Positions 23,369 to 51,613 of a DNA stretch of 64,000 nt are shown piece by piece. Made by a program: the position numbers and the translations under genes. Origin of the DNA: Arcicella aurantiaca. GTDB lineage: Bacteria > Bacteroidota > Bacteroidia > Cytophagales > Spirosomataceae. Every line of letters begins with the position of its first letter. The first letter of the stretch is position 1. The notes below the pieces were generated by a model. The model was given only the letters and a program-made list of their open reading frames with translations. It searched no databases and was not told the origin of the DNA. The stretch lies in the NCBI RefSeq assembly GCF_003148625.1, contig NZ_QGGO01000008.1:62001-126000 (forward strand). Direction: 5' to 3'.

Positions 23369-24088
23369 TTTGCCAGATTATGTAACAAAGAGAATCAAAA
23401 CAAATAACAAATTGTGCATTAAATAATACCTAAGCATTCTTTAAACCCTCACACACGTATTACATTATTATCAGCTTCATTAATGAATAACATTTATTAA
23501 GCCCTAAGCTATAATTAAGAAGTGTTCATCAATCTATTTAGAAGTTCTTATCCCTTATAGTCGCTTTTACAATTGTTATATTCCACCTTTCACTTATTAT
23601 TGACAAGATGTTTGACATAAAACTTATCTATGGCTTCAGAGCATAAGAGTTCATTAAATAGATATTCTGAAATATGAGGCTTCAGGGCATAAGAGTTCAT
23701 ATAAGTAGATATGCTGAAATAGGCATAAGAGTTCATAGTAAGTAGATATGCTGAAATATGTGGCTTCAGGGCATAAGAGTTCATAGTAAGTAGATATGCT
23801 GAAATATGTGGCTTCAGGGCATAAGAGTTCATAGTAAGTAGATATGCTGAAATATGTGGCTTCAGGGCATTGTAATTCATATAGCTTTCTGTCAAGACGA
23901 CCTAAAACACTTTCACAAGAAGTCTAATAACAAAAGTGGCGTTAGTGCGTCTTTCTATATGGGTATGAAAGACTTTGATTTCAGATAAATGATAAAAATA
24001 AGTGTAATTTATTCCACCTCTACAACTCAAAGACTTAACAAGTCATTATTTTTATTGCAATTTTACATAAAATTAAAATCTTACAAAT
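23369..24088. other. Intergenic spacer dapD-cvfB
   Basis: This 720-nt spacer is dominated by a 48-bp tandem repeat (23633-23885). The flanks are AT-rich with no gene that I can support. Confidence 0.6.
23633..23885. repeat. 48-bp tandem repeat (minisatellite)
   Basis: Units begin with GCTTCAGGGCATAAGAG. Two perfect 48-bp units lie at 23763-23810 and 23811-23858, diverged units of 46 and 43 bp at 23633 and 23679, a unit lacking GCTTCAG at 23722-23762, and a truncated last unit at 23859. There are no spacers, so this is not CRISPR. Because 48 is a multiple of three, the minus strand stays open and reads a 16-residue repeat, but it lacks credible flanking coding sequence. Confidence 0.9.
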
Positions 24089-48704: not shown

Positions 48705-49055
48705 TTATCCTACTAAGGTTATTTTAGCTCGTGAACATACTCCTCCAATTGGAGGATTAAACTTAGAAACTGCCACTTCAACTTTATCAATTTTAGGGTA
48801 TCGCTCTCTAACGCTTGAAATAATCAATTGAGCAATATGCTCTAATAATTTAGCTTTAATTTGCATTACACCCGAAATTATTTCATATAAATCTCCATAA
48901 TTAACGGTATCCTTAAGATTATCAGTATCTGCTGCTTCTGAAAAATCAGTAGTTATCTGAATATCAATCTGATAGCGATTACCTATTTTTTGCTCTTCAG
49001 CATAAACACCGTGATATGCAAAAAACTCTAAGCCTTCTAAGGCAATTGTTCCCAT
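48705..49055 (-). CDS. folB: Dihydroneopterin aldolase
   Basis: FolB cleaves 7,8-dihydroneopterin to 6-hydroxymethyl-dihydropterin in folate synthesis. The 116-residue protein has the active-site glutamate region FFAYHGVYAEEQ, then NRYQIDIQITTDF, DTVNYGDLYEII, LLEHIAQLIISSV and VEVAVSKFNPPIGG with the catalytic-region Lys. Length is normal. It is located directly upstream of a LacI-family gene (3 nt between stop and next ATG), an unusual pairing. Sequence upstream to the DivIVA-like gene is 129 nt. Confidence 0.93.
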   Translation of the reverse strand: MGTIALEGLEFFAYHGVYAEEQKIGNRYQIDIQITTDFSEAADTDNLKDTVNYGDLYEIISGVMQIKAKLLEHIAQLIISSVRERYPKIDKVEVAVSKFNPPIGGVCSRAKITLVG

Positions 49056-49184: not shown

Positions 49185-50456
49185 TTAAATATTATCGAAA
49201 AAAGACCCTCCGCCATTACTAATTGATGCAGGAGATTCTTTGGCAAATTCTTCCATTACTGATGAAACGGTTGGTAATCCATCATCTTTTGTCAGTTTTC
49301 GAGGTCTGCCACGTGCTGCTTTCATTTCTTTTGTCAAATTATCCGCAATTTCATTAAATGGTAGTGAAGACAAATCTACCTGATGTTCTTCACTTAATAT
49401 TGTATTAACTGTCGGCAATTCTATGTCTTCTTCTTTCTCAGCTAAAATCTTATGAACAGTTGGCAACTCAACTTCTTCTTCGATTTCACCTAAAATAGCA
49501 TGAGTTGTTGGTAGTTCTGCTTCTTTTTCTACCAAAATATTGTGAACAGTTGGCAACTCTGCTACTACTTCTTTTTCACTCAATATAGCATGAACTGTCG
49601 GCAATTCTTCATTCTCATCATCAAAATCACTGGCAGGTTCAAAATCAATTTCAGCTTCATTGCTAACTTCTGGCTCAACGAAATTTGAAGATGGTTCTGA
49701 AATTACATTTGATAATTCTGTTCTAATTGGTTCTTCAACTGACTCTAAATCATTAATTATTAAACTACTTGTCGTCTCTTCAACAATAGGTTCAACAATT
49801 TTGTTCTCTTCCACTTCTTGAGTAGTCTCAAAAGATAATTCTGGAGTAACAATTGTAGGGATTGGAGCTGTTATGGCTGCCTCTTTTTCTGCAATTTTTA
49901 TATCAAGGTCATTGAGTCTTGCTTCATTTGTTCTGCTATTGATACGTTCTTCAAACTTAGTTACTTTGTCGAGAGCATCATTAGCAAAACTTTTTAATTC
50001 AACCACCAAATAATCTTTATATCGTTCCATTGCCTTGAAATCACGCTCATAATTTTTGAGGTCATTCACGGCATCCTCCACTAAGAATTTGGCTTTACTT
50101 TCAGCTTCAGAAATTATCATATCAGCACCTTTCTGAGCTTCGGCAGTTATTCCCTCCGCATCTTTGGTAGCTTTATCTGTAATTAAATCAGCTTCTGCTT
50201 GAGCTTTTGAATTTATTTCTTGTTGAGCATCTTCGGCAGCTTTAAGAGTTTTGAAAAGACTATTTTCAATTTCTTTCATTCTTACAATCTCACGCTCAGC
50301 AACTTCCAATTGCTGTTTCGATTGTCTAAGTTCCTCCGATACACGTTCCCACTCCTGCGAAAGAGAAAGCAAGAAAGCATCAACCGACTCAGTATCGTAA
50401 CCTCTAAAACTTTTATCGAAAGTATGTTGTCTGATTTCAAGGGGAGTAATTCTCAT
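49185..50456 (-). CDS. DivIVA-domain protein with LPTVH repeats and an AT-hook
   Basis: This is a 423-residue protein. Residues 1-60 are a DivIVA N-terminal domain (ITPLEIRQHTFDKSFRGYDT, ESVDAFLLSLSQEWERVSEE), followed by a long coiled coil to about 190 with repeating Ala/Glu heptads. An acidic region (200-283) precedes five tandem motifs LPT(V/T)(H/N)xILxE at about 285, 301, 315, 331 and 347, plus a degenerate copy GLPTVSSVMEEF at 393-404. Between them lies ARGRPRKLTK (381-390), a canonical AT-hook core. DivIVA proteins sit at curved membranes and organise poles and division; the AT-hook suggests contact with AT-rich DNA. The five motifs look like a docking array. All function is inference. 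The ATG at 50456 starts the domain. Confidence 0.85.
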   Translation of the reverse strand: MRITPLEIRQHTFDKSFRGYDTESVDAFLLSLSQEWERVSEELRQSKQQLEVAEREIVRMKEIENSLFKTLKAAEDAQQEINSKAQAEADLITDKATKDAEGITAEAQKGADMIISEAESKAKFLVEDAVNDLKNYERDFKAMERYKDYLVVELKSFANDALDKVTKFEERINSRTNEARLNDLDIKIAEKEAAITAPIPTIVTPELSFETTQEVEENKIVEPIVEETTSSLIINDLESVEEPIRTELSNVISEPSSNFVEPEVSNEAEIDFEPASDFDDENEELPTVHAILSEKEVVAELPTVHNILVEKEAELPTTHAILGEIEEEVELPTVHKILAEKEEDIELPTVNTILSEEHQVDLSSLPFNEIADNLTKEMKAARGRPRKLTKDDGLPTVSSVMEEFAKESPASISNGGGSFFDNI

Positions 50457-50513
50457 GATTTTTTAATTTATTTCCTCAGGTTAAGGATATATAAAACAAA
50501 GTTGGATTTTTAT

Positions 50514-50603
50514 AGTTATTAGTTATTAGTTATTAGTTATTAGTTATTAGTTATTAGTTATTAGTTATTAGTTATTAGTTATTAGTTATTAGTTATTAGT
50601 TAA
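50514..50603. repeat. Heptanucleotide array (AGTTATT)n upstream of the DivIVA-domain gene
   Basis: About twelve perfect copies of AGTTATT plus a partial one, 57 nt before the ATG at 50456 (minus strand). The length is not a multiple of three, and it lies in the promoter region, so copy-number change would shift spacing by 7 bp. Confidence 0.95.
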
Positions 50604-50660: not shown

Positions 50661-50681
50661 TTCTCTATTCTCTATTCGCTA
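50661..50681. repeat. Short heptamer array at WD40 gene end
   Basis: TTCTCTA, TTCTCTA and TTCGCTA lie end to end and reach into the stop codon of the WD40 gene (50679-50681). Confidence 0.7.
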
Positions 50682-51578
50682 TATCAAGCTCCAAACAGAA
50701 ATATGTCTATCGTCTGATGCTGTAACTAATAGGTTTTCGTATTGACTCCACCACAATTTATTGATTGAAGTCCCATGTCCTGCGTGACGAGCTTTATCAA
50801 TAACTTTTAATAATTTGAATTGTTCTGCATCCCAAATTTTCACCGATTTATCCATACTACATGTAGCAAATAACTTTCCGTCTGGACTATACTTTATATC
50901 ATTTATGGCAAATAAATGTGCTGCAATATCTTCTTGCAACTGATAGCCTTCTTCCGCATTCCAAATTTTTAAGTGAGCATCTCGGCCTGTTGAGAGTAAA
51001 TACTGATAATCAGGCGAATAGCAAACACTAAAAACTGAGTTTGTGTGGTGATTTAACACTAATTTCAATGAAAAATCCTGCAAATCAAAGATTTTTACAG
51101 AAAAATCGCTGTATGCAACTGCAAATTCCCTTAAAATTGGGTTTATTGATATATTTCTAACGCTTTTATCTGATGCTTTAATATGCTTTTTTATACCAAA
51201 ACTCTCTACGTCCATTACTACAATCGTTCCATCTGATAGTCCAATTAAAGCAATATTTTTATAAATTTTTATGTCAAAAATTGACCCTGAAGTAATTTTT
51301 ATAGAAGCAATTTCTTCCTGCGAATCAACATCAATCAAATGAATACCTTCAAAATTTTGACCAATCCATAAATGATTTCTTGTTTCATCCAAACACAAAG
51401 CATAAATAGAAGCAGGTATTTGAGCAAATAGTTCTCCTGCATCAGGTTTGAGTAAATCCCAACGGACAACTAAGCCATCTCCACCTGCTGAAAAAAACTG
51501 ACTACTTTCGGTAGCCCTTTCGAGCGTATAAACACAGTCACGATGTCCAGAAAATGTATCTATTTTTTCTACTTGCAT
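50679..51578 (-). CDS. WD40-repeat protein
   Basis: This 299-residue cytosolic protein is one seven-bladed WD40 propeller covering the whole chain: VEKIDTFSGHRDCVYTLERA, GDGLVVRWDL, SVFSVCYSPDYQYLLSTGRD, AHLKIWNAEEGY, AINDIKYSPDGKLFATCSMD, KSVKIWDAEQ and DDRHISVWSL. It should act as a binding platform; the partner is unknown. The ATG at 51578 is preferred over a TTG at 51596. It is flanked by heptamer arrays on both sides and diverges from the phosphopantetheinyl transferase gene. Confidence 0.9.
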   Translation of the reverse strand: MQVEKIDTFSGHRDCVYTLERATESSQFFSAGGDGLVVRWDLLKPDAGELFAQIPASIYALCLDETRNHLWIGQNFEGIHLIDVDSQEEIASIKITSGSIFDIKIYKNIALIGLSDGTIVVMDVESFGIKKHIKASDKSVRNISINPILREFAVAYSDFSVKIFDLQDFSLKLVLNHHTNSVFSVCYSPDYQYLLSTGRDAHLKIWNAEEGYQLQEDIAAHLFAINDIKYSPDGKLFATCSMDKSVKIWDAEQFKLLKVIDKARHAGHGTSINKLWWSQYENLLVTASDDRHISVWSLI

Positions 51579-51585
51579 TTTGTTG

Positions 51586-51613
51586 GTTATTGGCAACTGG
51601 TTATTAGTTATTG
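51586..51613. repeat. Heptamer array between WD40 and PPTase genes (left)
   Basis: GTTATTG, GCAACTG, GTTATTA and GTTATTG, four 7-mers, 7 nt before the WD40 ATG. They run inverted relative to the array at 51725. Confidence 0.75.

Follow-up and report, generated by a model that had tools for sequence, protein, structure and literature searches.

The window, by which we mean the whole 64,000-nucleotide stretch of DNA analysed here (G+C 0.34, from a genome of 5.93 Mb), carries on its minus strand a divIVA gene whose product has its nearest named relatives in Arcicella (Spirosomataceae). The gene lies between a WD40 beta-propeller gene and folB, and its product joins a DivIVA domain to a tail with several short motifs. 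The features of the locus are as follows.

48705–49055, minus strand: folB, dihydroneopterin aldolase, directly downstream of divIVA (PF02152, E 3.3e-34)
49185–50456, minus strand: divIVA gene, 423 amino acids, ATG start, one open reading frame
49188–49214, minus strand: GGGSFFDNI, residues 415–423, the very C-terminus
49254–49280, minus strand: GLPTVSSVM motif, residues 393–401, conserved copy of LPTV
49296–49313, minus strand: RGRPRK at residues 382–387, the AT-hook-like core of a +5 basic patch
49386–49607, minus strand: five ELPT(V/T)(H/N)xIL units, residues 284–357, predicted disordered
49935–50393, minus strand: long helix or coiled coil predicted by AlphaFold2, residues 22–174
50130–50450, minus strand: DivIVA domain PF05103, residues 3–109, E 1.3e-28
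50679–51596, minus strand: WD40 beta-propeller gene, directly upstream of divIVA (PF00400, E 1.3e-32)

The N-terminal DivIVA domain recognized in the initial annotation is confirmed by Pfam, with PF05103 scoring 100 bits against a cut-off of 28, and TIGR03544 scores 45.1 against a cut-off of 22. The N-terminus aligns to Bacillus subtilis DivIVA (2wuj) with E 8.7e-6 as a single sequence and 5.6e-9 as a profile, and the SFRGYD loop within the domain (residues 16–21) has the same letters in both. F17 and R18 of this loop have a role in membrane insertion; across 21 aligned DivIVA proteins R18 is invariant and F17 is kept at 90% or above. An AlphaFold2 run on an alignment of 21 sequences as a single chain predicts one long helix at residues 22–174, compatible with the coiled coil named in the initial annotation. 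Helix blocks in residues 21–170 reach pLDDT values of 87–98, and residues 1–20 lie at 57–58. The tail, with pLDDT mostly below 50, is predicted to be disordered, with weak helices at 367–381 and 397–406, the second of which falls within the last LPTV motif. Mean pLDDT for the whole protein is 63.6 and pTM 0.28.

The most conserved tail element is a C-terminal SFFDx(I/L/F/V), which had escaped the initial annotation. Among 29 aligned orthologues, G417, S418, F419, F420 and D421 are the sole invariant tail residues, and the pattern is unique to this protein in its own genome. Defined as [SNG]FFD plus up to six residues at the C-terminus, an SFFD-type end closes 149 of the 169 non-redundant proteins read from Cytophagales (identical last-150-residue tails merged), a count to be read against biased sampling, with regions hand-picked to span genera and g13, g20 and g23 deliberately enriched. 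The residue two past the aspartate is I in 104 of these ends, L in 27, F in nine and V in nine. The 20 proteins without the end comprise 15 from the genus coded g13, one from g132, and L171, L177, L187 and L057. The DivIVA frame of L057 (Sporocytophaga) is broken or stops early, and GSFFDSL can be read downstream in another frame. None of 49 DivIVAs from outside Cytophagales has an SFFD end. Many DivIVAs outside the order (L105–L134 and L149–L168, which belong to different classes within the phylum) have acidic-hydrophobic ends of another kind, for example IDDILDSLE or RRILDDLD, perhaps other partner-docking ends. Because the SFFD end persists throughout the order while the rest of the tail cannot be aligned, it predicts a conserved partner that could be fished with a nine-residue peptide.

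A second conserved element is the last LPTV copy. It had been described as a degenerate sixth repeat, a description that does not hold: GLPTVSSVMEE (residues 393–403) is a copy conserved in 10/10 nearest orthologues, in all of which G393, L394, P395, T396, V397, S399 and M401 are invariant. Directly touching this motif is a +5 basic patch that presents a GRP core with basic flanks in an unfolded region (KAARGRPRKLTK, surrounding pLDDT about 46–71). The claimed AT-hook core, ARGRPRKLTK, is present as a motif; scanned with Pfam at E 1, the window protein gave no AT-hook or linker-histone match, a motif this short often being below reach. By chance, [KR]GRP[KR] appeared once in 50,000 shuffles of the 223-residue tail. 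RGRPRK is present in six proteins (L001–L006), five from the window genus and one from genus g29, with synonymous codon changes, and L007 of the window genus has KVKPRKPGK in its place.

The patch itself is more widespread than its AT-hook form. In the Arcicella/Flectobacillus clade, 18 proteins chosen by hand from the tree and genus codes, a +5 patch lies 44–49 residues from the C-terminus in 14, and it exceeds shuffles at p ≤ 0.05 in 14. The two sets overlap in 13 proteins; L023 has the patch at the fixed place without exceeding shuffles, L246 exceeds shuffles with the patch elsewhere, and L009, L029 and L254 have none. Six proteins of the clade carry the AT-hook form, and two have a lysine-rich patch without GRP (KIKLKKFGK in L010, KFIKKIKKSG in L041). 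Tails bearing the patch have net charges from −2 to −43. The record of L044 is titled Cellulophaga sp. BC115SP; its DivIVA tail is nearly identical to those of Flectobacillus (L041, L042), and the record name may be wrong.

Other DNA-binding-like modules occur in relatives. Among the 15 tails of g13, a genus that we take to be possibly Aquirufa and whose genomes are small, ten contain 2–4 HMGA-like motifs such as RGRKPK, RGPKPK and VGRPK; these tails are rich in lysine, proline and alanine, positive in net charge and HMGA/histone-H1-like. The remaining five are lysine-rich without such motifs. All 15 have lost SFFD and kept LPTLNKVL. The DivIVAs with an HMGA/histone-H1-like tail and no SFFD end are found at L202–L216 and L186. 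At E 1, Pfam returned no AT-hook or linker-histone match in any of the five HMGA-like proteins scanned. A further 28 proteins (L024, L030, L178, L180, L182, L183, L189, L190, L192–L201 and L226–L235), forming one clade with SH-aLRT 98, carry, after the coiled coil and ahead of the C-terminus, a helix–hairpin–helix-like (HhH-like) domain marked by IEGIGPKI and by conservation over roughly 80 residues. G8, I9, G10, P11 and K12 of the segment are invariant in 17 aligned sequences. The HHH_5 cut-off (27) was passed by one of six HhH-bearing sequences (L226, at 27.2), the other five scoring below it, and PDB matches of the alignment were weak, none being a DNA-binding protein. DNA binding by this domain is thus no more than possible. 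Searched in the window's own genome, the segment matched nothing, so no donor gene was found.

Regular expressions detected no DNA-binding-like module in 46 of 95 proteins of the family and in 73 of 74 other Cytophagales proteins, the exception being the frame-broken L057; these counts leave aside frames leaving the contig (e.g. L008/L039 and L101) and proteins shorter than 180 residues. An AT-hook ancestral to all was not adopted, given the 46 family proteins without any module. The tree was built by a quick method from the 97 rows, out of 109, for which a WD40 sequence was present; its backbone is partly unresolved and g13 sits on a very long branch. On it, the AT-hook and HMGA-like characters require two changes each. 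A strict clade of AT-hook and HMGA-like rows was rejected (p-AU 1.07e-6). A clade that joins g13 to all of the Arcicella group was not rejected (p-AU 0.772), so the two forms may share one origin with later losses. The modules, as judged from sequence, had at least two origins and likely at most three.

Together, these features lead us to propose, with a probability of about 0.5, that this DivIVA-type scaffold links membrane to nucleoid within one polypeptide and also serves as a hub for partners. As in its family, the N-terminal domain and coiled coil would bring an oligomer to the curved inner membrane of poles or septum, from which the long acidic, disordered tail would extend into the cytoplasm. 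The basic patch, RGRPRK in this clade, would contact the AT-rich nucleoid weakly and with no sequence specificity, and oligomerization could strengthen the contact by avidity. The LPTV motifs and SFFD end would be short docking motifs for one or more partner proteins, with the rise of LPTV sites from the usual 1–3 to six in this species giving higher valency. In relatives, HMGA-like tails or the HhH-like domain would take the same DNA-facing role. That one orthologous linker holds DNA-binding-like modules of several kinds favours a direct DNA link, and DivIVA itself may connect membrane and chromosome. The tie between membrane or division machinery and chromosome suggested in the initial annotation is thereby partly upheld: the basic patch, HMGA-like tails and HhH-like domain in the same linker speak for it, and the lack of Pfam AT-hook or linker-histone matches and the single HHH_5 pass in six speak against it. 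If DivIVA does bind DNA itself, it would be a minimal membrane–chromosome anchor, and the three natural tail types would offer ready-made variants of it.

A basic patch can also bind things besides DNA. The protein could instead be a hub that gathers only proteins at the pole or septum. LPTV and SFFD would then recruit partners, and the patch would act as an electrostatic spacer, folding on the acidic tail, binding membrane or aiding docking of the LPTV helix, with no DNA role. The SFFD end is far commoner (149/169) than any DNA-like module, the patch adjoins the conserved LPTV motif in a strongly acidic tail, and the patches of L010 and L041 are lysine-rich without GRP, all of which suits such a hub. 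However, two genera share RGRPRK, g13 has RGRKP/RGPKPK repeats and a third clade has HhH, all of which point to nucleic acid, beyond charge. We regard the proteins-only hub as a real but doubtful possibility.

The linker-and-hub reading leaves room for a partner, and the neighbouring genes supply a candidate. On the same strand, folB lies 3' of divIVA in 58 of 61 long loci and the WD40 gene 5' of it in 56 of 61, with a median gap of 33.5 nt in those 56. Under a stricter rule, and counting Cytophagales loci that extend 1000 nt or more upstream, 113 of 136 have the WD40 gene next to divIVA on the same strand, versus 0 of 47 loci outside the order. Propellers commonly bind short linear peptides, which, with this adjacency, is consistent with a WD40 propeller that acts as receptor for the SFFD end or LPTV motif, and with an operon that yields a DivIVA–propeller complex. 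Yet the gene is kept in 16/16 g13/g132 loci despite SFFD loss, and likewise at L177, and seven 'same class' genomes in which DivIVA had no match contain weaker WD40 homologues (L219–L225), beside which none of the window's neighbour genes stands. Both observations weaken the propeller as exclusive SFFD partner, and we consider its receptor role unlikely. At five of the seven L219–L225 loci, the neighbours resemble histidine biosynthesis genes by eye. Between the WD40 gene and divIVA, Tandem Repeats Finder (TRF) found an error-free TAGTTAT array of 12.9 copies (50513–50602), and elsewhere in the window an error-free 48-bp unit of 3.1 copies (23722–23870). If it lies in a promoter, such a 7-bp array might change in length and thereby tune expression.

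The five LPT(V/T)(H/N)xILxE repeats of the initial annotation were recovered as five units with their L at residues 285, 301, 315, 331 and 347, spaced by 16, 14, 16 and 16 residues. Under a loose pattern, at least one LPTV motif is found in 48 of the 169 Cytophagales proteins; the window protein has six copies and the other 168 have 0–3. In the ten nearest orthologues the first ELPTVHAI unit is preceded by a conserved DDE segment. Units 2–5 are, on sequence comparison, a local expansion in this genome among readable tails, which exclude the G002 and G005 species (tails missing). A degenerate DNA pattern of the unit had five matches genome-wide, all in this gene, and its reversed control none. 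Assembly stutter is ruled out as the source because the unit codons have diverged (nucleotide identity 0.61–0.86 over 10 pairs of 12 codons each). An origin of the array by slippage within disordered spacer, functionless by itself, would fit its restriction to this genome among readable tails and relatives that manage with 0–3 copies, but we hold this to be improbable, as the ELPT core was kept through codon drift that amounts to 41 synonymous and 33 non-synonymous differences, and 20,000 shuffles of the 223-residue tail never yielded LPT[VT] more than twice. The proposed docking array is plausible, the more widely kept docking elements being the single C-terminal LPTV and SFFD; of the LPTVH repeat and AT-hook sought in Cytophagales, RGRPRK recurs in six proteins and the array is private among readable tails.

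The scaffold is widely kept. DivIVA orthologues were found in 55 of 59 relatives and in 197 of 200 genomes of the family, the tails coming from part of the 197, among the matches listed. In a 148-genome phylum sample PF05103 was present in 75 genomes (own, same order and other classes), none of these positives being a 'same class' genome of another order. Against plasmids, the window protein gave five matches, all distant DivIVA. MinC (PF03775) was found in 0 of 39 genomes including the window's own and in six of 14 control genomes; a MinCD adaptor role of DivIVA here is therefore unlikely. We tentatively extend the linker-and-hub reading to the family, at somewhat short of even odds: Spirosomataceae DivIVA may have become a chromosome anchor whose linker gained unrelated DNA-binding modules at least twice (AT-hook/HMGA-like, and HhH), giving a direct one-protein tether from curved membrane to nucleoid in bacteria that yielded no MinC; SFFD and LPTV would dock a cell-cycle partner.

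Within the open-licence literature (subscription journals may differ), no paper was found on a DivIVA with such a DNA-binding-like tail, nor one covering division placement or chromosome segregation in these bacteria; the accessible passages hold incidental co-mentions only. Several known systems share parts of the design, as far as the available passages describe them. In Staphylococcus aureus, DivIVA is tied to chromosome segregation and contacts SMC in two-hybrid assays (PMC5572376); it differs in that the link is indirect, via a partner, and 'DNA-binding' occurs 0 times in the available text (PMC5572376). DivIVA of Bdellovibrio bacteriovorus, a Gram-negative bacterium, is linked to ParA (PMC7186360), but via the operon neighbour Bd0465 and with no DNA-binding tail reported in the passages (PMC7186360). 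RocS of Streptococcus pneumoniae combines a membrane-binding part, a coiled coil and a DNA-binding part in one polypeptide (PMC11500499); it differs in its N-terminal HTH, C-terminal amphipathic helix, lack of a DivIVA domain and opposite polarity. According to the excerpts of a WhiB paper, Wbl proteins generally have C-terminal basic residues rather than AT-hooks, with probably weak, non-specific DNA binding, a description that fits the non-GRP forms of the DivIVA patch equally well. In Myxococcus xanthus CarD, the DNA-binding domain is an intrinsically unfolded tail in which RGRP AT-hooks come after an acidic segment (PMC4374960). The window tail similarly has an acidic segment and then an RGRP-type hook and is predicted unfolded; CarD differs in its fusion to an RNA-polymerase-binding domain and in having four hooks rather than one. 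B. subtilis DivIVA has the identical SFRGYD loop, and its C-terminus holds the chromosome at the pole via the DNA-binding protein RacA (PMC6593407). Unlike B. subtilis, which has MinC, the 39 relatives yielded none, and unlike there, where the passages describe DNA as gripped by the second protein, the DNA-like motif here lies within DivIVA. From these partial accounts, the best analogy would be B. subtilis DivIVA and RacA merged into one polypeptide with a CarD-like tail layout.
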